Assembly: GCF_024331145.1 (NCBI RefSeq)
Contig: NZ_JANDJO010000003.1
Span: forward strand, 248,001 to 312,000
DNA from: Shimia sp. CNT1-13L.2
GTDB lineage: Bacteria; Pseudomonadota; Alphaproteobacteria; Rhodobacterales; Rhodobacteraceae
DNA: 64,000 nt
Reading direction: 5' to 3'
A program made the position numbers and the translations under genes. Numbering within the stretch: the first letter of the stretch is position 1; every line of letters starts with the position of its first letter. The notes below the pieces were generated by a model. The model had not been told where the DNA came from and ran no database searches. It saw nothing but the letters and a program-made list of their open reading frames with translations. This document shows positions 52,860 through 63,079 of the stretch, piece by piece.

Positions 52860-53705
52860 TCAGCGTTGCGAGCGCGCCATGAAGGCGAGGCGTTCGAAGA
52901 GGTGGACGTCCTGTTCGTTTTTCAGGAGTGCGCCGTGCAGTTTGGGCAGGGCGTTGGCGCCGTCGCGCTTGAGGTCTTCGGCATCGAGGTCTTCGGCCAG
53001 CAGTAGCTTGAGCCAGTCGAGCACTTCGGAGGTGGAGGGTTTCTTCTTGAGGCCCGGGGTTTCGCGGATCTCGTAGAACTGGGTCAGGGCGGTGGTCAGA
53101 AGCGCCTCTTTCACGCCCGGGTGGTGCACCTCGACGATGGCTTTCATCGTGTCGTGGTCGGGGAAGCGGATATAGTGGAAGAAACAGCGGCGCAGGAAGG
53201 CGTCGGGCAGTTCCTTTTCGTTGTTCGATGTGATGATGATGATCGGGCGCTGCTTGGCCTTGATCGTCTCGCCGGTCTCGTAGACGTGGAACTCCATCTT
53301 GTCGAGTTCCTGGAGAAGGTCGTTGGGGAATTCGATGTCGGCCTTGTCGATCTCGTCGATCAGCAGAACGACCTTTTCGTCGGCCTCGAAGGCCTCCCAG
53401 AGCTTGCCCTTCTTGATGTAGTTCTTCACGTCATGCACGCGCTCTTCGCCAAGCTGCGAGTCACGCAGGCGGCTGACGGCGTCATATTCGTAGAGGCCCT
53501 GTTGCGCCTTGGTGGTCGATTTGACGTTCCATTCGATCATGCGCAGGCCCAGACCGGTGGCAACCTGTTTGGCCAGTTCGGTTTTACCGGTGCCCGGTTC
53601 ACCCTTGACCAGAAGCGGGCGTTCGAGCGCGACGGCAGCGTTGACGGCCACCGTCAGGTCGTCGGTGGCTACATAGCTTTCGGTGCCTTCAAAACGGTGA
53701 GTCAT
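52860..53705 (-). CDS. MoxR-family AAA+ ATPase
   Basis: AAA+ ATPase of 281 residues with Walker A GEPGTGKT (35-42), Walker B VVLLIDEID (112-120), sensor 1 TSNNEKE and an arginine finger region LRRCFFHY. Members act with VWA proteins as chaperones for metal-enzyme assembly; here the partner is the VWA gene at 49474. The ATG at 53705 follows AGGAAGGACG. Other genes lie between ATPase and VWA gene, unlike the usual direct pairing. Confidence 0.94.
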   Translation of the reverse strand: MTHRFEGTESYVATDDLTVAVNAAVALERPLLVKGEPGTGKTELAKQVATGLGLRMIEWNVKSTTKAQQGLYEYDAVSRLRDSQLGEERVHDVKNYIKKGKLWEAFEADEKVVLLIDEIDKADIEFPNDLLQELDKMEFHVYETGETIKAKQRPIIIITSNNEKELPDAFLRRCFFHYIRFPDHDTMKAIVEVHHPGVKEALLTTALTQFYEIRETPGLKKKPSTSEVLDWLKLLLAEDLDAEDLKRDGANALPKLHGALLKNEQDVHLFERLAFMARSQR

Positions 53706-54067
53706 CTTCGTCCTTCCTGCCGGTTGCGCGCATGTCCGATTTGTCAGGCAATTGGGTAAAGCCGGCAACGGGATTTGGCAAGGTGCGCCGCTGCGTCGTT
53801 TTGAAATGGCGGGGGATCGCCCTAAATCCGTTCCCAGATGCTGTTGAACGCGCGAAATAAACTGTTTCCATTGATTATGTTGCGTCTCATTGAAAAGACA
53901 GGGAAAATCGGAACGAGGTTTTTCGGCGGGGCAATTTCGCGCTTCTTTTTTCGCCTTGCCTGCGGCTTTGTTGAAAATCGTGATGCCCGTTCGCATCGTT
54001 TTGACGCTTTGCCTAGTGACAATCCGTGCGCCGTGGGCTATTGCGAGCGCAGAGTAAGGGGGGCCTG

Positions 54068-54541
54068 ATGTCTGAGGAAACTATTATGACGGACGTTAGC
54101 CACGATGAGGGAGCAGCCATGAAAGCAGAGACTTTCCTGCCCGACGATTATCGACCGGCAGAAGATGAACCGTTCATGAATGAACGCCAGATCGAGTATT
54201 TCCGTAGAAAACTCATCAACTGGAAAGAAGAAATCCTCGAAGACAGCCGCGACACGATCGAGGGCCTTCAGGAAAGCACCCGCAACATTCCCGATGTCGC
54301 AGACCGCGCCAGCGAGGAAACCGACCGGGCGCTGGAACTGCGGACCCGTGACCGTCAGCGCAAGCTGGTTGCCAAGATCGACTCGGCCCTGCGTCGCATC
54401 GACGAGGGCGAGTATGGGTATTGCGAAGTGACGGGTGAGCCGATTTCGCTCAAGCGTCTGGACGCGCGTCCGATTGCAACCATGAGCCTTGAGGCGCAGG
54501 AGCGCCACGAGCGCCGCGAAAAAGTGCACCGCGACGACTAA
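54068..54541 (+). CDS. dksA: DksA-family RNA polymerase-binding protein
   Basis: Stringent-response transcription factor that binds the RNA polymerase secondary channel with ppGpp. It is 157 residues from 54068, which follows AAGGGGGGCCTG; an alternative ATG at 54119 (MKAETFLPDDY) also has GAGGGA upstream and would give 140. The coiled-coil tip motif DVADRA is kept (DxxDxA). The zinc-finger region reads YGYCEVTGEPI ... TMSLEAQE, so only one of four zinc cysteines remains. A strong terminator follows. Confidence 0.93.
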   Translation: MSEETIMTDVSHDEGAAMKAETFLPDDYRPAEDEPFMNERQIEYFRRKLINWKEEILEDSRDTIEGLQESTRNIPDVADRASEETDRALELRTRDRQRKLVAKIDSALRRIDEGEYGYCEVTGEPISLKRLDARPIATMSLEAQERHERREKVHRDD

Positions 54542-54567
54542 AGCGCCGGTTTCGAGAGAAAAATCTG

Positions 54568-54597
54568 AACGCCGAGGGTTTCACCTCGGCGTTTTTC
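54568..54597 (+). terminator. Terminator after dksA
   Basis: Perfect 10-bp stem AACGCCGAGG/CCTCGGCGTT with loop GTTTCA and a T-run. Confidence 0.92.
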
Positions 54598-54613
54598 GTT
54601 TCAAAAGACGCAT

Positions 54614-55786
54614 ATGAGTCTTTCGGGTAAGAAAATCACGGTTATTGGTGCCGGCATTGGCGGTTTGACGGCCGCCATTGCGTTGCGCGCGCGGGGCGCC
54701 AAGGTCACGGTGCTTGAGCAGGCCGAGGCAATCATCGAGGTCGGGGCGGGTATCCAGGTCAGCCCGAACGGGTTCGCGGTATTGCGGGCCCTTGGGCTGG
54801 AGGACAGGTTCCGACAGATTGCAGTTCAGGGGCAGGCGGTCGAGCTGCGCGACTATCGCGCCGACAGCCTTGTGGCCCGTCTGGATCTGGGGTTGCTGCC
54901 CGAGGATCAGCCCTATTTCTTCGTACACCGCGCCGATCTTGTCGACATTCTGGCCGATGCGGCCCGTGCGGAAGGTGTGAAGATCCGCCTTTTGCAAAAG
55001 GCGAATACGGTTGAGGCCACCGACCTACCTGTTGTGCATCTCGCCAATGGTGCCGACATGAAGGCCGATATCGTGATCGGGGCGGATGGCCTGCATTCGC
55101 GGCTGCGTCCGGTTCTGAACGGGGTGACCGCGCCGTTCTTTACCCGCCAGACCGCGTGGCGCGCGACCATTCCCAACGTGATCGACCACCCTAACGTTTC
55201 GCGGGTTCACATGGCGCCCAAGCGGCACATGGTGACCTATCCGCTGCGGGGCGGGGAGTTGATCAATATCGTGGCGGTGCAGGAGCGCACCGGCTGGGCC
55301 GAAGAGGGCTGGCAGCACAAGGATGACCCCGCCAACCTGCGTCATGCGTTCAGCGATTTCGGGGGCGATGCCAAGCGGATGCTTGCAGCGGTCGAGGACG
55401 TCGGCCTCTGGGGGCTGTTCCGTCATCCGGTGGCACCGATCTGGCATAAGGGCCATACGGCGATCCTTGGCGATGCGGCGCATCCCACCCTGCCGTTCAT
55501 GGCCCAGGGCGCGGTAATGGCGATGGAAGACTCCTGGGTGTTGACCGATGCACTGGATCAGGCGGACACGGTTGAGGCCGGGCTGGCCGCCTATCAGGCG
55601 CGACGGGAAGACCGGGTGAAGAAGATTGTCGAAACCGCCAACGGCAATGCGTGGAAGTATCACCTGTCGTTCCCGCCGATGCGTTTCGGCGCCCATATGG
55701 GCCTGCGGGTGGTGTCGAAGCTGGCGCCGAAAAAGTTGATGCAGCAGTTCGACTGGATCTACCGTCACGATGTGACCAAGGGGTAG
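54614..55786 (+). CDS. FAD-dependent aromatic-ring monooxygenase (salicylate hydroxylase-like)
   Basis: Class A flavin monooxygenase of 390 residues that uses NAD(P)H and oxygen to hydroxylate an aromatic substrate. The FAD dinucleotide motif GAGIGG is at 12-17, DG in GADGLHSRLR near 156, and GDAAHPT near 286, the three fingerprints of the family. It lies alone; no ring-cleavage genes are next to it, so the substrate is unknown. The ATG follows AAAGACGCAT, a weak ribosome site. Confidence 0.92.
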   Translation: MSLSGKKITVIGAGIGGLTAAIALRARGAKVTVLEQAEAIIEVGAGIQVSPNGFAVLRALGLEDRFRQIAVQGQAVELRDYRADSLVARLDLGLLPEDQPYFFVHRADLVDILADAARAEGVKIRLLQKANTVEATDLPVVHLANGADMKADIVIGADGLHSRLRPVLNGVTAPFFTRQTAWRATIPNVIDHPNVSRVHMAPKRHMVTYPLRGGELINIVAVQERTGWAEEGWQHKDDPANLRHAFSDFGGDAKRMLAAVEDVGLWGLFRHPVAPIWHKGHTAILGDAAHPTLPFMAQGAVMAMEDSWVLTDALDQADTVEAGLAAYQARREDRVKKIVETANGNAWKYHLSFPPMRFGAHMGLRVVSKLAPKKLMQQFDWIYRHDVTKG

Positions 55787-55808
55787 GACACTCTTCTGGA
55801 AGAGTGTC
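55787..55808. terminator. Hairpin between the monooxygenase and xthA
   Basis: Perfect stem GACACTCTT/AAGAGTGTC with loop CTGG directly after the stop codon. No T-tract follows; the AT-rich inverted repeat AAATTTT/AAAATTT at 55819-55836 may add to termination of these convergent genes. Confidence 0.55.
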
Positions 55809-55843
55809 CGGTGCTGTAAATTTTCCAGAAAATTTGACTATCT

Positions 55844-56650
55844 TCAGGCGTCGAGGTCGACCCAGACCGGAACGTGGTCGGAGGGTTTTTCGCGGCCGCG
55901 CACCTCTTTGTCGATCTGGCAGTCGCGCAGGAGATCGGCGCAGGCGGGGCTGAGCAGGAAGTGGTCGATGCGGATGCCGTCATCGCGGTTCCATGCGCCG
56001 GCCTGGTAATCCCAGAAGGAATAGTGGCCGGGGCCGAAGGTGCGGGCGCGGAAGGCCTCGGTGAAGCCAAGGTTCATCAGGCGTCGGAAGGCGGCGCGGC
56101 TTTCGGGGCGGGCGAGGGCGTCTTGCTGCCAAGCTTCGGGGCGGCGGGCGTCTTCGTCCTGCGGGATGATGTTGTAGTCGCCCGCCATCAGGAAGGGTTC
56201 CTCGCCGGCCAGAAGCTCCTGGGCGCGGGCGTGCAGGCGCTCCATCCAGCGCAGTTTGTAATCGTATTTCCCGCCGGGCACGGGGGTGCCGTCGTCCTGG
56301 AGTTCGACTGGGTTGCCGTTGGGCAGATAAAGGCCGCAGACGCGGATCGGGGTTTTGCCGATCACGGTCGCCTCGATCCAGCGGGCCTGTTCATCGCTGT
56401 CATCCCCGGGCAGGCCGCGGGTGACATCTTCGAGGGGCAGCTTGGACAGGATCGCGACGCCGTTAAAGCTTTTCTGGCCGTGGGTTTCGACGATGTAGCC
56501 GCGGTCTTCGAAGAGTTCGCGGGGGAAGGCCTCGTCGACCGACTTGATTTCCTGCAACAGGGCGACGTCGGGCTGGGCCTCGTCGAGCCAGGCGGGAAGG
56601 GCCTGTGCGCGCGCCTTGATGCCATTGATGTTGAATGTCGCGATTTTCAT
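55844..56650 (-). CDS. xthA: Exodeoxyribonuclease III
   Basis: Magnesium-dependent AP endonuclease and 3'-5' exonuclease of base-excision repair, 268 residues. Family signatures are KIATFNINGIKAR, LLQEIKS (metal Glu), NGVAILSK, AGDYNIIP and the catalytic SDHVPVWVD. It is convergent with the monooxygenase gene and separated from the repeat-protein gene by 408 bases. Confidence 0.96.
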   Translation of the reverse strand: MKIATFNINGIKARAQALPAWLDEAQPDVALLQEIKSVDEAFPRELFEDRGYIVETHGQKSFNGVAILSKLPLEDVTRGLPGDDSDEQARWIEATVIGKTPIRVCGLYLPNGNPVELQDDGTPVPGGKYDYKLRWMERLHARAQELLAGEEPFLMAGDYNIIPQDEDARRPEAWQQDALARPESRAAFRRLMNLGFTEAFRARTFGPGHYSFWDYQAGAWNRDDGIRIDHFLLSPACADLLRDCQIDKEVRGREKPSDHVPVWVDLDA

Positions 56651-57058
56651 GTCCGTCTCCCTGCCGCGTTGATGCCTGTATCACGCATGGGAGACGCTGT
56701 TTCAAGTCTGTCTCTGACGTTGAAGCGCGGTGTGAAAGGCGGGGTCTGATGCGAATCGGATTCGGGGATTCGCGGGGGCGGATTCCGCCGATTCCGCGCA
56801 CGGATTCTGGATACATGGAGAGAGATTCGTGGTAGAATTTGTTCGTGAACAGGAAAATATGAAGAATTTTCAGAAAAAAATGTGGCAAAATTGGAAACAA
56901 TCGGAATAGCTTAGAGGACAAAGTTATCAGAGGATTGTGACTCAACCTTAACGTGTAACTTGAATTTTGAATCCCGATTTGGTAGAATTTTCCGTTTGAA
57001 AAAATAAGGCTGCGTGCAAGCCTGAACCCGCTCAAAACTTCAACTTGGAGGGTTCCAA
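56651..57058. other. AT-rich intergenic region upstream of the MFTSGL gene
   Basis: This 408-base gap has no supported gene. The part from 56820 is markedly AT-rich compared with its surroundings. The direct repeat TGGTAGAATTT occurs at 56830-56840 and 56980-56990, exactly 150 bases apart. It should hold the promoter for the gene at 57059, but no -35/-10 pair is compelling. Confidence 0.6.
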
Positions 57059-57622
57059 ATGCTCGCTCAAAAATCAGTCGAAATGATCTCGGAAACGGTT
57101 GCGGATAGCGCTGTAACACAGCACGAAAGCAACATCCATGACGGCTCTCACACCGAGATGTTCACCTCTGGTCTTTCGCCGGAAATGGCCACTGACGCCA
57201 TGGCCGGAGACGGTGCCGAAATGTTCACCTCTGGCCTTGTGCAGTTGTACACCTCGGGCCTTGCGCCGACCGCATCGGCCGAAGCCGTGACCGGTGAAGG
57301 CGTGGAGATGTTCACCTCGGGTCTTTCGGCAAGCGGCACCTCGGCGGAAGCTGGCGAGGCCGTTGAAATGTTCACATCCGGTTTGGTGCAGATGTTCACT
57401 TCGGGCCTTGCCCCAAGTGCATCCGCCGAAGCGGTGACCGGTGAGGGGGTGGAGATGTTCACCTCGGGTCTTTCGGCAAGCGGCACCTCGGCGGAAGCTG
57501 GTGACGCTGTCGAGATGTTCACATCCGGTCTGGTGCAGATGTTCACCTCGGGTCTTGCGCCGCAAGAAGAGGCCAAGGCCGACGCCGGTGAAGGTGCCGA
57601 GCTGTTCACCTCGGGTCTTTGA
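57059..57622 (+). CDS. MFTSGL-repeat protein, candidate multi-core peptide precursor
   Basis: A 187-residue acidic protein with no Cys, Trp or Arg and only two Lys. It carries ten copies of [EQ][ML][FY]TSGL at residues 33, 54, 62, 83, 103, 111, 132, 152, 160 and 181; the last copy forms the exact C-terminus. The first 32 residues (MLAQKSVEMISETVADSAVT...) lack the motif and look like a leader. Spacers are Ala/Ser/Glu rich (SASGTSAEAGDAV, APSASAEAVTGEGV). A strong TTGGAGGG site precedes the ATG. No known domain is recognisable. A secreted, cleaved or modified peptide is the favoured reading but is inference; a low-complexity surface or storage protein is the alternative. Confidence 0.85.
   Translation: MLAQKSVEMISETVADSAVTQHESNIHDGSHTEMFTSGLSPEMATDAMAGDGAEMFTSGLVQLYTSGLAPTASAEAVTGEGVEMFTSGLSASGTSAEAGEAVEMFTSGLVQMFTSGLAPSASAEAVTGEGVEMFTSGLSASGTSAEAGDAVEMFTSGLVQMFTSGLAPQEEAKADAGEGAELFTSGL
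57218..57622 (+). repeat. 147-base tandem repeat within the MFTSGL gene
   Basis: Units at 57218-57364, 57365-57511 and a 111-base partial at 57512-57622. Each encodes 49 residues with three MFTSGL-type motifs. Bases 57302-57354 are identical to 57449-57501 (53 bases), showing recent duplication. Confidence 0.9.
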
Positions 57623-57642
57623 TCGCAGGCCATGACAACGGG

Positions 57643-57662
57643 GGCGCGGGGAAACCCGCGCC
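57643..57662 (+). terminator. GC-rich hairpin after the MFTSGL gene
   Basis: Stem GGCGCGGG/CCCGCGCC closed by a GAAA tetraloop, 20 bases after the stop codon. No T-tract follows, so it is more likely a partial stop or a 3' mRNA-protecting structure that lets the first gene be expressed above the next two. Confidence 0.65.
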
Positions 57663-57690
57663 GCTGTGTCCGCAACCGGGGAGACACCAG

Positions 57691-58767
57691 ATGACCAATG
57701 TCGTAAAACTCAACATCGCATCGCAACGGCAGACACAGAAAGAGCGTGATATCGCGCTGATGCAGTGTTTCGCCTCGCACCGCCGGACCGGGGATGATGT
57801 GTTCTGGCTCAAGGAGAATGCAGAGCTTCTCAACATTCTTGAGTGTTCGGGGCGCAAGCTGGCGGATGCGGACCTTGCGGCCTATCGCGGGTTTTATGGC
57901 CAGGTCGAGAAACGGCTTCAGTTCTTCCCACAGTATTATCGGTTCCTTCTGTCCATTTGCCTTGATCTTGAAGATCTGGGAATGGAGGGCTGGAAGGGCG
58001 AGGTTCTGGCGAATTGGGTGTCAGATCAAGGGTTTGCCCGGTCGGAACTTTCAGATCTTCAACGTATGGAAGCGCGTCGCCTGATGATGCGCCGGGGTGT
58101 TGATCCGCTGGCGGATTATCGGGGACTGGAAGATCGGGTACGGGCCTTCATTTCCCGTTCGGGCACCTTTTCGATGCCCAACAAGAAAGCGGCTTATGAG
58201 CTGACCCATGCAGTGTTTTACCTGTCTGAATACGGGCGCAAGGATCCGTGTCTGGATAGCGAAACGCGCACATCGCTTGAGTTCACGGGGCTTCTGGCCT
58301 TCCTTGAACAGAATGCCGATCTTTTGGCCGAAGTCTGTATCGCGCTGCGTTTTGGCGGGTTCGACGTTCCCGAGGTTTGGGAGGCCTGGCTGGTGCGCCA
58401 TACCCATCTGTTCGGGGTGGAGGGCGGCGACCATGTCGGCGTTCAGGATGACTATCACGAGTTTCTTGTCTGCAACTGGATGATGCAGGCCTGCGGGCAT
58501 CGAAGTTTCATTAAGCCGATGCTGGGAGAGCGCATGGCGTTTCGCCGGGCGCAGTCGAATGCCGGTCCGCTGCGTGAATTGTCGGAGTGCATGTTCAAGA
58601 TGGACCAGCGTTCGGACGACTGGCAGGCGATGCGGCCTGTTGTTCTTGACCATCTGTCGGAAGACGCGCAGGCGGTGGTGTCCTGGGCGGAACATTCCTC
58701 GGACCAGTTCGACGCCTTTTTCCAAGGGTTCGCGCGGGCGGGGCAAGCAATGGGGAGGCTGCAATGA
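57691..58767 (+). CDS. Unrecognised protein in the MFTSGL operon
   Basis: A 358-residue soluble protein that I cannot assign to a family with certainty. It appears entirely helical, has no signal peptide or membrane segment, and contains about nine Cys and many His and Trp (MQCFASHRR, LLSICLDLEDL, LVCNWMMQACGHRS). No ATP-grasp, radical-SAM, YcaO or protease motif is visible. The ATG at 57691 follows GGGGAGA; an earlier ATG at 57619 overlaps the upstream hairpin. Its stop overlaps the exporter start by four bases, so it is coupled to the transporter. A processing or immunity role for the repeat peptide is inference. Confidence 0.85.
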   Translation: MTNVVKLNIASQRQTQKERDIALMQCFASHRRTGDDVFWLKENAELLNILECSGRKLADADLAAYRGFYGQVEKRLQFFPQYYRFLLSICLDLEDLGMEGWKGEVLANWVSDQGFARSELSDLQRMEARRLMMRRGVDPLADYRGLEDRVRAFISRSGTFSMPNKKAAYELTHAVFYLSEYGRKDPCLDSETRTSLEFTGLLAFLEQNADLLAEVCIALRFGGFDVPEVWEAWLVRHTHLFGVEGGDHVGVQDDYHEFLVCNWMMQACGHRSFIKPMLGERMAFRRAQSNAGPLRELSECMFKMDQRSDDWQAMRPVVLDHLSEDAQAVVSWAEHSSDQFDAFFQGFARAGQAMGRLQ

Positions 58768-59708
58768 CCGGATTGGGACGCACGACACTTCTGGGCACGG
58801 CGTTGGTCGTGCTTTACACGCTGGCGATTTCCTCGGCGGATGCTATCACGAAGTTCGTCGCGCAAGGTTATGCTGCGCCACAACTTTTTGCCTTTTCGGG
58901 GGCGGTTGTCGTGGCCATGTCGTGGATCGGCGCGAGGTTGAAGCGCGAGGGCCAGAGCCTGCGTACCACGTGTCCGAGGGCGATGGCGCTGCGGGCGGCT
59001 TTGACGGTGGTCGGATCGGTCGCCTTTTTCTATGCGTTCAAGCTTTTGCCCTTTGCCGAGGTCTTCGTCTTTATCGGCATGATGCCGATTTTCGCAGGTC
59101 TGTTTTCCGCACCGGTTCTGGGAGAACACGTGCGGCCGCTGGCATGGGGCGCCTTGGCGGCCGGGTTTGTCGGGGTTTTGTGCCTGTTTCCGGGCGGGTT
59201 GGCTTCGGTGTCGATTGGCCATCTGGTGGCGCTGTTTGCTTGTGTGACCGGAACGCTTTCGATGGTGCTGGCGCGCTATATCGGCAAACACGAAAGCAAT
59301 TCCCTGGCGCAGGTGTTTTATCCAAACCTTGCCCTGTTCCTTGCCATGGCGATGGCATTGCCATTTGTCTACAAGCCGATGCCCATGTCCGATCTGGCCT
59401 GGGTGGGGGCCTATGCGGGGTTCCTGTTTGCGGCGCGTTGGCTTTCGGTGATCGCGCTGCGCCTCTTGGCGGCCTATGCGGTGACGCCCTTGATGAACCT
59501 GCAATTCGTGTGGATGGTGGTTCTGGGTGCGGTGTTTTTTGGCGAGGTTCCTGCAGCCAATATCTATCTTGGGGTGGCGATCGTGATCGCGTCAGGCGTG
59601 TTCCTTGTCTACGATCAGATGCAGCCGGAAGGCACGCCTTATCCGTGGGTTACGCGCCTTGGAGCGCGGTTTCCCATCCTCAAGTTCGTGGTGAAGACCG
59701 TCGACTAA
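58764..59708 (+). CDS. EamA/DMT-family transporter
   Basis: Inner-membrane exporter of 314 residues with about ten hydrophobic segments in two EamA repeats (LAISSADAITKFVAQGYAA... and ...VTPLMNLQFVWMVVLGAVFFGE). Family members export amino acids and other small metabolites. It starts inside the stop codon of the unknown protein (ATGA), so the two are translated together. In this operon it is a candidate exporter for a product of the repeat protein, but the DMT family usually carries small molecules, so this is uncertain. Confidence 0.9.
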   Translation: MTGLGRTTLLGTALVVLYTLAISSADAITKFVAQGYAAPQLFAFSGAVVVAMSWIGARLKREGQSLRTTCPRAMALRAALTVVGSVAFFYAFKLLPFAEVFVFIGMMPIFAGLFSAPVLGEHVRPLAWGALAAGFVGVLCLFPGGLASVSIGHLVALFACVTGTLSMVLARYIGKHESNSLAQVFYPNLALFLAMAMALPFVYKPMPMSDLAWVGAYAGFLFAARWLSVIALRLLAAYAVTPLMNLQFVWMVVLGAVFFGEVPAANIYLGVAIVIASGVFLVYDQMQPEGTPYPWVTRLGARFPILKFVVKTVD

Positions 59709-59718
59709 AGGTTTGTGG

Positions 59719-60042
59719 TTACATCGAAAAGCTGGTTCCGCAACCGCAGGAGCTTGTGGCGTTCGGATTGTTGATGACAAACCGGGCGCCAATCAGTTCT
59801 TCGGTGAAATCGATCACCGCGTCGGTCAGGAACGGCAGCGAGACTGCGTCGATCAGTACCGCTTCGCCATTGCCCTTGAGGACGAGGTCATCCTCGTTCG
59901 GGGTGTCGAGCTTGATCTCGTACTGGAAGCCGGAACATCCGCCACCTTCTACGGCGACGCGCAGGGCCTGGCCCTGATCGGAGGCCCCGATCTCGGCAAG
60001 ACGTTCGAAGGCACGGTCGGTCACTTTCGGCGGTAGCTGCAT
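59719..60042 (-). CDS. erpA: Iron-sulfur cluster insertion protein (A-type carrier)
   Basis: A-type Fe-S carrier of 107 residues that delivers clusters to apo-proteins, including IspG in other bacteria. Three conserved cysteines are visible: C36 in EGGGCSGFQ, and C99 and C101 in SSCGCGTSF near the C-terminus. ErpA, IscA and SufA are hard to separate; ErpA is favoured by isolation from isc/suf genes. The ATG at 60042 follows CAGGAGTGACAAA. It is divergent from dgt. Confidence 0.9.
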   Translation of the reverse strand: MQLPPKVTDRAFERLAEIGASDQGQALRVAVEGGGCSGFQYEIKLDTPNEDDLVLKGNGEAVLIDAVSLPFLTDAVIDFTEELIGARFVINNPNATSSCGCGTSFSM

Positions 60043-60145
60043 TTTGTCACTCCTGACAATGGGTTCGCGCGGGTTGCGGCATTCTGAAACGCCTCTAAGG
60101 TGCAATATATAGAAATGAGGACGACAGGCCACAAGGACCAAACCC

Positions 60146-61282
60146 ATGCGTGCCGCATATGCATCTGATCCTGCCACCGCCCGGGGACGGCGGGTGCCGG
60201 AAGAGGAAAGTTCGTTTCGCTCGTGTTTCCAGAGGGATCGTGACCGCATTATCCATGCCAGCGCGTTTCGCCGCCTGAAGCACAAGACGCAGGTTTTTGT
60301 GGAGCATGAGGGCGACAACTTTCGCACGCGGCTGACGCATTCCATCGAGGTGGCGCAGGTGGCACGGACGATCGCCGGGGCGCTGGGGCTGAATCCGGAA
60401 CTGACCGAGGCAGTGGCGCTGGCGCATGATCTTGGGCACACGCCCTTCGGACATACCGGCGAGGACGCGCTGGACCTGTTGATGGCGCCTTATGGCGGCT
60501 TCGATCACAATGCGCAGGCGATCCGGATCGTGACGGCGCTTGAGAAACATTATGCCGAGTTTGACGGGCTGAACCTGACCTGGGAAAGCCTTGAAGGGAT
60601 TGCGAAACATAATGGTCCGGTTCTGGGGGAGTTGCCCTATGCCCTGGCCGATTATAACGCGATCCATGATCTTGCGCTGCACACCTATGCCAGTGCCGAG
60701 GCGCAGGTGGCGGCTTTGGCGGATGACGTGGCCTATAACAACCACGATCTGCATGACGGGTTGCGCGCGGGGCTGTTCACGGAAGAAGAGATTGCGGCCC
60801 TGCCGATTGTCGGAGAGGCCTATGTGGAGGTCGACAAGACCTATCCGGGGCTTGAGCCGATCCGGCGGCGGCACGAGGCCTTGCGGCGGGTGTTCGGGGT
60901 CATGGTGGCGGATGTGATCGATACCTCGCGGGCGCTGCTCGAGGAGAGCGGGGCGCAATCGGTTGCGGATATCCGCGCCAATGGCGCGCCGGTTGTGCAG
61001 TTCTCGAAGCCGCTTTGGTCCGATCTGAAACAAATTCGCGAATTCCTGTTCACCCGCATGTATCGTGCGCCGTCTGTTGTGAAGATGCGCAAGGAGGTGA
61101 CGGAGGTGGTGAAGGATCTGTTCCCGACCTACCTGAATGACCCGAGCCTTCTGCCGGCGCGGTGGCACGCCGAGATCGCAGCGGCGAAGGATGAAACCAC
61201 GCTGGCGCGGATCGTGGCGGATTACCTTGCGGGCATGACCGATCGCTTTGCGTTGCAGGAACATGCGCGGCTGATCGGTTGA
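60146..61282 (+). CDS. dgt: Deoxyguanosinetriphosphate triphosphohydrolase-like protein
   Basis: HD-domain dNTP triphosphohydrolase of 378 residues that splits dGTP (or other dNTPs) to the nucleoside and tripolyphosphate. Metal ligands: H65 in RTRLTHSIEV, H94-D95 in ALAHDLGHTPFGH, and Asp in DDVAYNNHDLHDG. The shorter alphaproteobacterial form lacks some E. coli Dgt regions. It runs in the same direction as argS, 51 bases apart, a pairing known from other alphaproteobacteria. Confidence 0.94.
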   Translation: MRAAYASDPATARGRRVPEEESSFRSCFQRDRDRIIHASAFRRLKHKTQVFVEHEGDNFRTRLTHSIEVAQVARTIAGALGLNPELTEAVALAHDLGHTPFGHTGEDALDLLMAPYGGFDHNAQAIRIVTALEKHYAEFDGLNLTWESLEGIAKHNGPVLGELPYALADYNAIHDLALHTYASAEAQVAALADDVAYNNHDLHDGLRAGLFTEEEIAALPIVGEAYVEVDKTYPGLEPIRRRHEALRRVFGVMVADVIDTSRALLEESGAQSVADIRANGAPVVQFSKPLWSDLKQIREFLFTRMYRAPSVVKMRKEVTEVVKDLFPTYLNDPSLLPARWHAEIAAAKDETTLARIVADYLAGMTDRFALQEHARLIG

Positions 61283-61333
61283 CCTGAGAGTTTGGAGTGG
61301 TAAACCCGCCTGCAAATCAAAAGGACAGGTCCG

Positions 61334-63079
61334 ATGAACCTCTTTACGGAAATGCGCGCGCTTGTAATCGCGTCGCTTGAACAGATGCAGGCCGAGGGCG
61401 CGCTGCCCGAGGGGCTTGATTTCACCAATGTTGCGGTCGAGCCGCCGCGTGATGCGCTGCATGGCGACATGGCGACCAACGCCGCGATGGTGCTGGCCAA
61501 GCCGGCCAAGATGAAACCGCGCGACATTGCCGAGGTGCTGGCGGGCAAGCTGGCGGCGGATGCGCGTGTGACAAGCGCCGAAGTTGCGGGGCCGGGCTTT
61601 TTGAACATGCGTCTTGCGGCTTCGCTCTGGCAGGGGGTCGTGAAAGCCGCGTTGGATGCGGGCAGCGATTTTGGCCGCTCGTCGATGGGCCAGGGCAAGA
61701 GCGTGAACGTGGAATACGTGTCGGCCAACCCGACCGGCCCGCTGCACGTGGGGCATACCCGTGGCGCGGTTTTTGGCGATGCGCTGGCGAGCCTGCTTGA
61801 TTTCGTCGGTTTCGACGTGACCCGCGAGTATTACATCAACGACGGTGGCGCGCAGGTCGATGTTCTGGCGCGCTCCGTATACCTGCGGTATCTCGAGGCG
61901 CATGGTCAGGACGTGGCGTTCGAGGACGGCACCTATCCGGGTGAGTACCTGATCGAAGTTGGTGAGGCGCTGAAGGCCAAGGTGGGCGATGCCTATGTTG
62001 GCAAGGGCGAAGATGTCTGGCTGGCCGAGATCCGCGAATTCGCGACCGCCGCGATGATGGATCTGATCCGTGCCGACCTGAAGGCGCTTGGCGTCGAGAT
62101 GGACAAGTTCTATTCCGAGAAGTCGCTTTATGGCACGGGACGCATCGAGGCTGCGCTTGAGGCGCTGGAGAACAAGGGCCTGATCTATGAAGGCGTTCTT
62201 GAGCCGCCGAAGGGCAAGAAGCCGGAAGACTGGGAGCCGCGCGAGCAGACCCTGTTCAAATCGACCGAACATGGCGATGACGTGGACCGTCCGGTGAAGA
62301 AATCGGATGGCGCCTGGACCTATTTCGCGCCGGATATCGCCTATCACTATGACAAGGTGACCCGCGGCTATGATGCGCTGATCGACGTGTTCGGCGCGGA
62401 CCATGGCGGCTATGTCAAACGCATGAAGGCGGCGGTTTCGGCGCTGTCGGACGGCAAGACGCCGCTGGATATCAAGCTGACCCAGCTTGTGAAGCTCTGG
62501 AAGAACGGTGAGCCGTTCAAGATGTCGAAACGCGCGGGCAACTTTGTGACGCTGCGCGATGTGGTGGATCAGGTTGGTCCGGACGTGACCCGTTTCGTGA
62601 TGCTGACCCGCAAGAACGACGCGCCGCTGGACTTTGATTTTGACAAGGTGCTGGAAAGCTCCAAGGACAACCCGGTGTTCTATGTGCAATATGCGCATTC
62701 GCGGGTGTGCTCGGTGATCCGCAAGGCCGAAGAGGCCGGTATCACGGCAGATGACGCCACCCTGTCGGCGGCCGACCTTGGCAAGCTGGACAGCGAGGCC
62801 GAGATCAACGTGGCCAAGAAGATTGCCGAGTGGCCGCGTCTTGTCGAGATCGCGGGCCGCACCAACGAGCCGCATCGCGTTGCCTTCTATCTCTATGAAC
62901 TGGCAAGCGAATTGCACAGCCACTACAAGAAGGGTGACGACGATCACAGCCTGCGTTTCGTGCAGGAGGGCGATCCGGCCACATCTCAGGCGAAAATCGC
63001 GCTGGCACGTGCCGTTGCCATTGTTATTTCTGCCGGTCTTGGTATTCTTGGCGTAACTCCTGCGCAGGAGATGCGGTAA
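61334..63079 (+). CDS. argS: Arginyl-tRNA synthetase
   Basis: Class I aminoacyl-tRNA synthetase of 581 residues. The N-terminal Add-1 domain is followed by the HIGH motif as HVGHTRGA (about residue 138), the Rossmann core, KMSKS as KMSKRAG (about residue 396) and the DALR anticodon-binding domain ([34 protein letters not shown]). The ATG follows AAAGGACAGGTCCG. The SPOR gene begins 80 bases later. Confidence 0.97.

Follow-up and report, generated by a model that had tools for sequence, protein, structure and literature searches.

A repeat-rich precursor and its DUF6902 partner look like an undescribed modified-peptide system in many Rhodobacterales

What is made from a small protein that repeats nearly the same short motif ten times and ends exactly on the last copy? 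The question is raised by a stretch of 64,000 nucleotides from Shimia sp. CNT1-13L.2 (contig NZ_JANDJO010000003.1, positions 248,001 to 312,000; this whole stretch is called the window below), where three genes follow one another on the plus strand: the repeat gene (57059..57622), a gene encoding a protein of the Pfam family DUF6902 (57691..58767), and a gene encoding an EamA transporter (58764..59708). The repeat protein and DUF6902 look like the precursor and the proposed maturase of an undescribed modified-peptide system found in many Rhodobacterales. That the system works in the manner of a ribosomally synthesized and post-translationally modified peptide (RiPP) is well supported by the anatomy of the genes, insofar as sequence can speak to it.

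The repeats are real. The product, 187 residues long, was recognized as a multi-core precursor from its open reading frame (ORF), motif counts, AlphaFold2 prediction, and comparison of loci. Motif counting bore out what an earlier sequence-only reading had described: ten copies of [EQ][ML][FY]TSGL after a leader free of the motif (residues 1-32; 57059..57154). EMFTSGL accounts for cores 1 (57155..57175), 2 (57218..57238), 4 (57305..57325), 5 (57365..57385), 7 (57452..57472), and 8 (57512..57532), and QMFTSGL for cores 6 (57389..57409) and 9 (57536..57556); core 3 is QLYTSGL (57242..57262), and core 10, ELFTSGL (57599..57619), is the exact C-terminus. An encoded precursor with a leader and a core region is the general mark of a RiPP, and the 32-residue leader and ten cores give the sequence both parts. 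The ten repeats are explained neither by chance nor by recent duplication alone: not by chance, because 20,000 shuffles of the residues produced no copy of the motif (and TSGL, present ten times, compares with a best 4-mer count of 4 in 3,000 shuffles), and not by recent duplication alone, because nine different nucleotide spellings occur among the ten copies, with 100 of the 146 differing codon pairs synonymous. AlphaFold2 predicts the precursor to be disordered (mean predicted local distance difference test, pLDDT, 34.6; 185 of 187 residues below 50), its sole predicted helix, at residues 3-15, being of low confidence; such predicted disorder is as expected for a substrate made of leader and cores.

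Three minor features of the same region may be set aside. Pfam and NCBIfam matches to the precursor (DUF1048, caspase_w_EACC1, and others) lay below cut-off and on the repeats, and were rejected. A promoter-like site at 56960-56988 is at the level of chance (one found, 1.0 expected). Antisense frames on the minus strand over the repeats, 57074-57565 (163 residues) and 57148-57780 (210 residues), are apparent by-products of the repeats and of codon usage.

The partner protein has the 358 residues given by the sequence-only reading, which could put no family name to it. It is, nonetheless, a clear member of DUF6902 (PF21843; E 1e-164, 548 bits against a gathering cut-off of 27), and it also matches, far more weakly, DUF6895 (PF21836; E 4.6e-26, 92.3 bits against a cut-off of 23.8); judged by these matches, DUF6902 is remotely related to DUF6895. 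The earlier view was that any chemistry would be new; with a partner from named families, it need not lack a precedent. Sequence comparison showed two motifs common to DUF6895, both on the plus strand: YELTHAVFYLSEYG (residues 169-182, including H173; 58195..58236) and DDYH (residues 253-256, including H256; 58447..58458), the latter equivalent to the YH of YHxTLV in DUF6895. The AlphaFold2 model of the protein, made with 8 sequences, is nearly all helical (pLDDT 89.3; predicted template modelling score 0.88). By fold, Foldseek found no match in the PDB at E <= 0.001 (best, 0.4), and no match was found by sequence; a plasmid search gave no DUF6902.

If the two genes form one system, one would expect them to travel together, and they do. 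DUF6902 is present in 82 of 295 sampled genomes of the window's bacterial family, and in 7 of the 398 genomes of a phylum-wide sample, all seven from that same family. The 81 loci that were read comprise the window locus (L027) and those of 80 further positive genomes; the 82nd positive, G139, is a DUF6902 fragment at a contig edge and lies outside the 81. A repeat precursor stands upstream of DUF6902 in 79 of them. An automatic rule, applied first, picked up such an ORF in 59 loci, and reading the other 22 added 20, a relaxed rule being used for these remaining loci and two (L068 and L070) being assigned by hand. In 75 of the 79 pairs, the precursor ends less than 150 bases from DUF6902; in L104, L049, and L115 the distance is 168-491 bases, and in L068 the end is masked by N. 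L049 and L115 are unusual in this respect, their precursors ending 342 and 491 bases upstream. The precursors truncated where a contig ends (L061, L075, L076, L099) or containing N (L068, L101) still have at least three cores each. Only L102 (genome G288) and L119 (genome G039) have no precursor. A candidate in Aquificaceae (L008) had neither a DUF6902 match nor a repeat ORF and was put down to chance.

The association was also approached from the side of the precursor. The sequence-only reading had called for a profile search, and had held that its idea would fall if homologues of the repeat gene usually occurred without the other two genes. That objection clearly fails for DUF6902, and also for EamA (61 of 79 loci). 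A repeat profile (A3) built from seven precursors gave hits in 74 of 290 family genomes, every one of which also carries DUF6902. Eight DUF6902-positive genomes were missed by the profile, five with divergent cores (L103, L105, L108, L116, L118), the two without a precursor, and G139. Orphan precursors may therefore exist unseen in the 290-genome count, as divergent cores escape the profile and at most 12 first-look candidates were scored per genome. A Fisher test of the co-occurrence (p 2e-60) ignores relatedness and assumes identical genome sets, and we do not rely on it.

There is also the fate of DUF6902 where the precursor is missing. In an alignment (A2) of 80 rows, from which the partial L111 was omitted, 34 positions are invariant among the 78 DUF6902 proteins that accompany a precursor, including the polar residues H173, H256, D253, R125, and E119. 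When each of the 78 is left out in turn, it departs from the invariant set at a median of 0 and a maximum of 4 positions. In the two orphans, 8 (L102) and 18 (L119) of the 34 are changed; H173 is replaced in both, by R and Q, and L119 also loses H256. The L119 protein is very divergent, that of L102 is not, and both genes lack EamA as well as the precursor. The decay in both precursor-less loci, few as two cases are, suggests that DUF6902 is kept for the sake of the precursor.

What is repeated differs from species to species (FTSGL, FSSGS, FTSWSGP, FTTSM, MMCCS, LSPSC, YIAGL), mostly with repetition of the one core within a protein. The commonest (modal) 4-mer is FSSG in 17 of the 79 precursors and FTSG in 5, others being TSWS, FTTS, SSCS, MMCC, SSTC, ALSP, and YIAG; in some precursors, it overlaps residues flanking the core. 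Exact copies of the modal 4-mer number from 2 to 20 per precursor (median 6). On average, the modal 4-mer of one precursor is found in 13% of the others, and its last copy lies at the C-terminus or at most 2 residues from it in 43 of the 79. As in the window, identical copies are mostly not all spelt alike: of the 74 precursors with at least three identical 4-mers, 72 show more than one DNA spelling. Core classes assigned by hand (G 37, W 18, other 23, covering 78 of the 80 rows) cluster on the DUF6902 tree: they need 20 changes, where shuffles need 34.1 on average (none of 200 as low), and the W class alone needs 5 against 16.3 (none of 500 as low). Resolution of the tree is weak, with 36 of its 77 inner branches open, and the clustering fits co-evolution of core and partner and also plain vertical descent.

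How might such a system work? We read it as a multi-core precursor and maturase pair of the RiPP type whose chemistry would most likely be epimerisation at Calpha, and this reading as a whole seems to us fairly probable. The first gene would give an unfolded polypeptide in which a leader is followed by a single kind of short core (in this case FTSGL), present 2-20 times and mostly in identical form, with spacers that often hold G[DE]. DUF6902 would bind the leader, the spacers, or both, and modify each core, most likely by inverting a core residue from L to D; H173, H256, or both may lie in the active site. Short peptides would be set free by an unlinked protease, and EamA, where present, would export them or a small derivative of them. 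The parts of this scheme deserve different degrees of trust. That DUF6902 modifies the precursor is very likely, and release as short peptides is probable; that the modification is epimerisation has perhaps an even chance of being right, and export by EamA could go either way. The sequence-only reading had seen in the leader, repeated core, and partner the plan of a modified-peptide or pheromone precursor. That core of the idea gains from the co-occurrence with DUF6902, the pairing of the genes, and the decay of the orphans; its hairpin and its exporter do not prove to be general.

Epimerisation is placed first among possible chemistries because the related family DUF6895 contains a protein published, according to the title of the article, as a lasso-peptide epimerase (Shi et al., ACS Catal. 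2026; reference 371 in PMC13352647). The likeness consists of the 92.3-bit match to PF21836 and the shared motifs YxxTHxxFYxxDFG and YH. Against what that title conveys, DUF6902 differs in being a separate Pfam family, met in one bacterial family alone among the 398 genomes sampled across the phylum, in having a multi-copy repeat protein as its would-be substrate, and in its setting: no lasso genes were seen among the neighbours scanned, and specifically no lasso cyclase or leader peptidase among the ten genes scanned in 52860-63079. A further parallel is MslH, the epimerase of the lasso peptide MS-271 (PMC10406935), metal-dependent according to the title of that article. As is proposed (and only proposed) for DUF6902, MslH acts as a maturase on a ribosomal peptide and inverts one of its core residues; in contrast to this metal-dependent enzyme, DUF6902 has no PDB counterpart by sequence, and none by fold at the threshold given above. 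For several cores in one precursor served by a single maturation route, there are the microviridins (PMC5934393, in part) and the fungal repeat precursors processed by Kex2 (PMC7329392, in part), from which, as these excerpts present them, the present case differs in that neither an ATP-grasp ligase nor a protease was found among the neighbours scanned.

Several considerations weigh against this reading. The system is known here from genes and predicted structures, and the epimerase link comes down to one article title, concerning the sister family DUF6895. Kinship among the 82 genomes, and the single chromosomal site that most loci occupy, mean that the loci are not independent. Loss of H173 in the orphans accompanies wider decay and so does not single that residue out as catalytic. 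Some precursors mix cores, often with a different one last (L082, L094, L096, L007). EamA is missing from 18 of 79 loci, and no protease is clustered among the neighbours scanned in the window. Finally, in the wider DUF6895 family taken up below, the only small ORF at L183 and L186 is of another kind, shared by these two loci and separated from the tandem DUF6895 genes by lying two genes upstream, and a third locus (L185) has no clear one.

Perhaps, then, DUF6902 is no enzyme, instead serving as chaperone or scaffold to a disordered repeat protein that stays intact and has a structural, adhesive, or sensing role. Its all-helical prediction would suit this, as the non-significant Foldseek matches include helical-repeat peptide binders (armadillo proteins, importins), and repeated identical motifs could act as multivalent binding sites. 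However, the variety of cores (FSSGS, SWSGP, MMCCS, LSPSC, YIAGL) facing one conserved partner suits an enzyme better, as do the five polar residues invariant in all 78 precursor-bearing rows and the published DUF6895 epimerase, known from its title; also, no signal peptide or anchor is evident by eye in the precursor. We regard a purely binding role as unlikely.

Or perhaps the repeat protein is a scaffold for small molecules, its cores tailored, released as single residues or di- or tripeptides, and exported by EamA. In the pearlin or 3-thiaglutamate pathway, a ribosomal peptide is used to make exported small products, and EamA-type proteins are exporters of small metabolites. Such a route would give meaning to the transporter that is four-base coupled to DUF6902 here and adjacent to it in 61 of 79 loci. 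But the peptide-aminoacyl ligase and the DUF692 enzyme of the pearlins were not found among the neighbours scanned, nor was any other ligase or adding enzyme, and the unit repeated within an array is a whole core of four to five residues rather than a single residue, so that this explanation appears more doubtful still. That the locus is an expression or toxin-antitoxin-like module, or that the repeats are maintained by DNA-level processes with no peptide product, is very improbable: long arrays with many same-spelt copies do exist (as many as 20 copies of the modal 4-mer; of 2,040 pairs of identical 4-mers, 420 have the same DNA), but the other 1,620 pairs differ in spelling, the profile search met the precursor only together with DUF6902, no toxin or antitoxin family exceeded cut-off in Pfam or NCBIfam, and in the two loci without a precursor DUF6902 has decayed rather than stayed conserved.

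Does the precursor-and-maturase plan extend beyond DUF6902? In the phylum-wide sample, DUF6895 matches 13 of 398 genomes, 11 of them over cut-off; 7 of the 11 are DUF6902 proteins, and the others are from G398, G474, G635, and G242. A class sample gave matches in 7 of 289 genomes, 4 over cut-off (three DUF6902 proteins and a new one from G679), and a tblastn search of plasmids with the G398 protein gave 7 DUF6895 records. Twelve DUF6895 loci outside DUF6902 were read, matches below cut-off (L138, L139, L147-L149) being left out, and Pfam confirmed the family in all 10 proteins scanned. The superfamily was met in three phyla: Pseudomonadota, Actinomycetota, and Bacillota. Nine of the twelve loci have, directly upstream, a small ORF that joins a leader to an aromatic core, in some cases twice: GPWFVLAG in L140, GPWYIYKE and GPWFVLKE in L141, DWTFVSPNYVYKG and DWTFISHNYVYKG in L142, GWWAVVSD in L143, AWAFIVKGKFVFKD in L146, LAWDKYVLVV in L180, EWELATKHFLLRG in L181, LAWERYVLVV in L182, and GPWYAYH in L184. 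By eye, the leader is of the type SGIxxxxTTLxQLL in L141, L142, L146, L180, L181, L182, and L184, loosely so in L140, and not in L143. NCBIfam had no match for the eight small ORFs scanned (L146, L183, and L186 were outside the scan). The H173 and H256 motifs are common to the DUF6895 proteins, except that L143 stops before the second. Most of these ORFs hold just one or two cores, so a multi-copy design does not characterize the superfamily as a whole.

Some of these loci have peculiarities of their own. L143 (5624-6605) is from G242, a genome of the window's family without DUF6902; its DUF6895 gene, with the GWWAVVSD ORF upstream, may be broken, as the frame stops before the YH motif. In the Kitasatospora and Streptomyces plasmid loci L180 (6983-8737) and L182 (6722-8455), DUF6895 makes up only the first half of a protein that continues for about 280 residues, and annotations within 7 kb include a type I polyketide synthase and an IPT/TIG protein. 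At L183 (5718-7603) and L186 (5173-7798), two tandem DUF6895 genes in Streptomyces fungicidicus are followed by a gene for a serine hydrolase, and S. chartreusis has similar tandem frames; upstream in both are a conserved ORF of 60-70 residues ending LLLSPPxPRPKKG and a protein of 230 residues.

A broader proposal, which we offer tentatively and would not back against an even wager, is that DUF6902 and DUF6895 make up a peptide-epimerase superfamily with a fold of its own, acting on many unrelated ribosomal peptides across phyla. In Rhodobacterales, it would define a new class of multi-core RiPP: every species would have a short D-residue peptide of its own (FTSGL, FSSGS, SWSGP, MMCCS, and others), encoded 2-20 times over in the precursor and perhaps serving as a strain-specific signal. 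Among the papers listed by an open-access library for DUF6902, DUF6895, lasso and peptide epimerases, multi-core RiPPs, and RiPP mining in Rhodobacteraceae, none was found to describe the precursor/DUF6902 system, and the core strings MFTSG, MFSSGS, FTSWSGP, and GPWFVLK gave only unrelated matches there. If the proposal is true, more than a quarter of the sampled family genomes (82 of 295) carry an unrecognized peptide pathway with hypervariable cores, DUF6902 acquires a function, the one DUF6895 epimerase reported (by title) is extended to a superfamily in three phyla, and peptide engineering gains a substrate that is naturally multi-copy.

The proposed exporter is part of many of the loci. 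In the window, it matches PF00892 (E 1.2e-13, 51.9 bits, in two stretches), and four bases (ATGA) at the end of the DUF6902 gene belong to its gene as well, the coupling noted in the sequence-only reading. An EamA homologue adjoins DUF6902 in 61 of the 79 loci whose sequence reaches far enough, two at only 25-27% identity; the window itself has EamA, just under the length cut of this count. A precursor is present in 16 of the 18 loci without EamA, and in 14 of the 18, a gene for an iron-sulphur (Fe-S) protein directly follows DUF6902, so in these EamA is simply absent; no EamA was found at L056, L072, L117, and L118. EamA is frequent but dispensable, and the earlier suggestion that an exporter belongs to the general plan survives only as a common adjacency.

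The surroundings are otherwise rather constant. A gene with the Pfam domain Exo_endo_phos, which we take to be exonuclease III-like, lies upstream on the opposite strand in 75 of 76 loci with enough sequence, and the Fe-S gene lies downstream in 67 of 77. In 30 chosen genomes negative for DUF6902, the exonuclease gene is present in all 30, with the Fe-S gene within 1.5 kb of it in 20; no EamA match occurred in the flanking 1.5 kb (shorter where a contig ended). In the window, ten genes were scanned (52860-63079), encoding AAA, DksA, FAD-binding, Exo_endo_phos, repeat, DUF6902, EamA, Fe-S, HD, and ArgRS proteins.

There remains the hairpin. The gap of 68 bases between precursor and DUF6902 contains, on the plus strand, a stem of 8 bp closed by a GAAA loop (GGCGCGGG-GAAA-CCCGCGCC; 57643..57662), with a folding z of -3.1 against 100 shuffles. 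The GC-rich hairpin that the sequence-only reading had placed here is therefore present, but it is rejected as a general, statistically strong feature: with 8 of the 79 regions left out for length or N, z is below -2 in 14 of 71 (median -0.5), and an alignment of 14 regions, picked by eye out of the first 25, yielded only 4 shared pairs, a weak result. A small stem-loop stretch close to ACGGGGCGTTCAGAGAACGCCATTTGAAA is nevertheless common to the window (57623-57690) and several loci among L043-L061.

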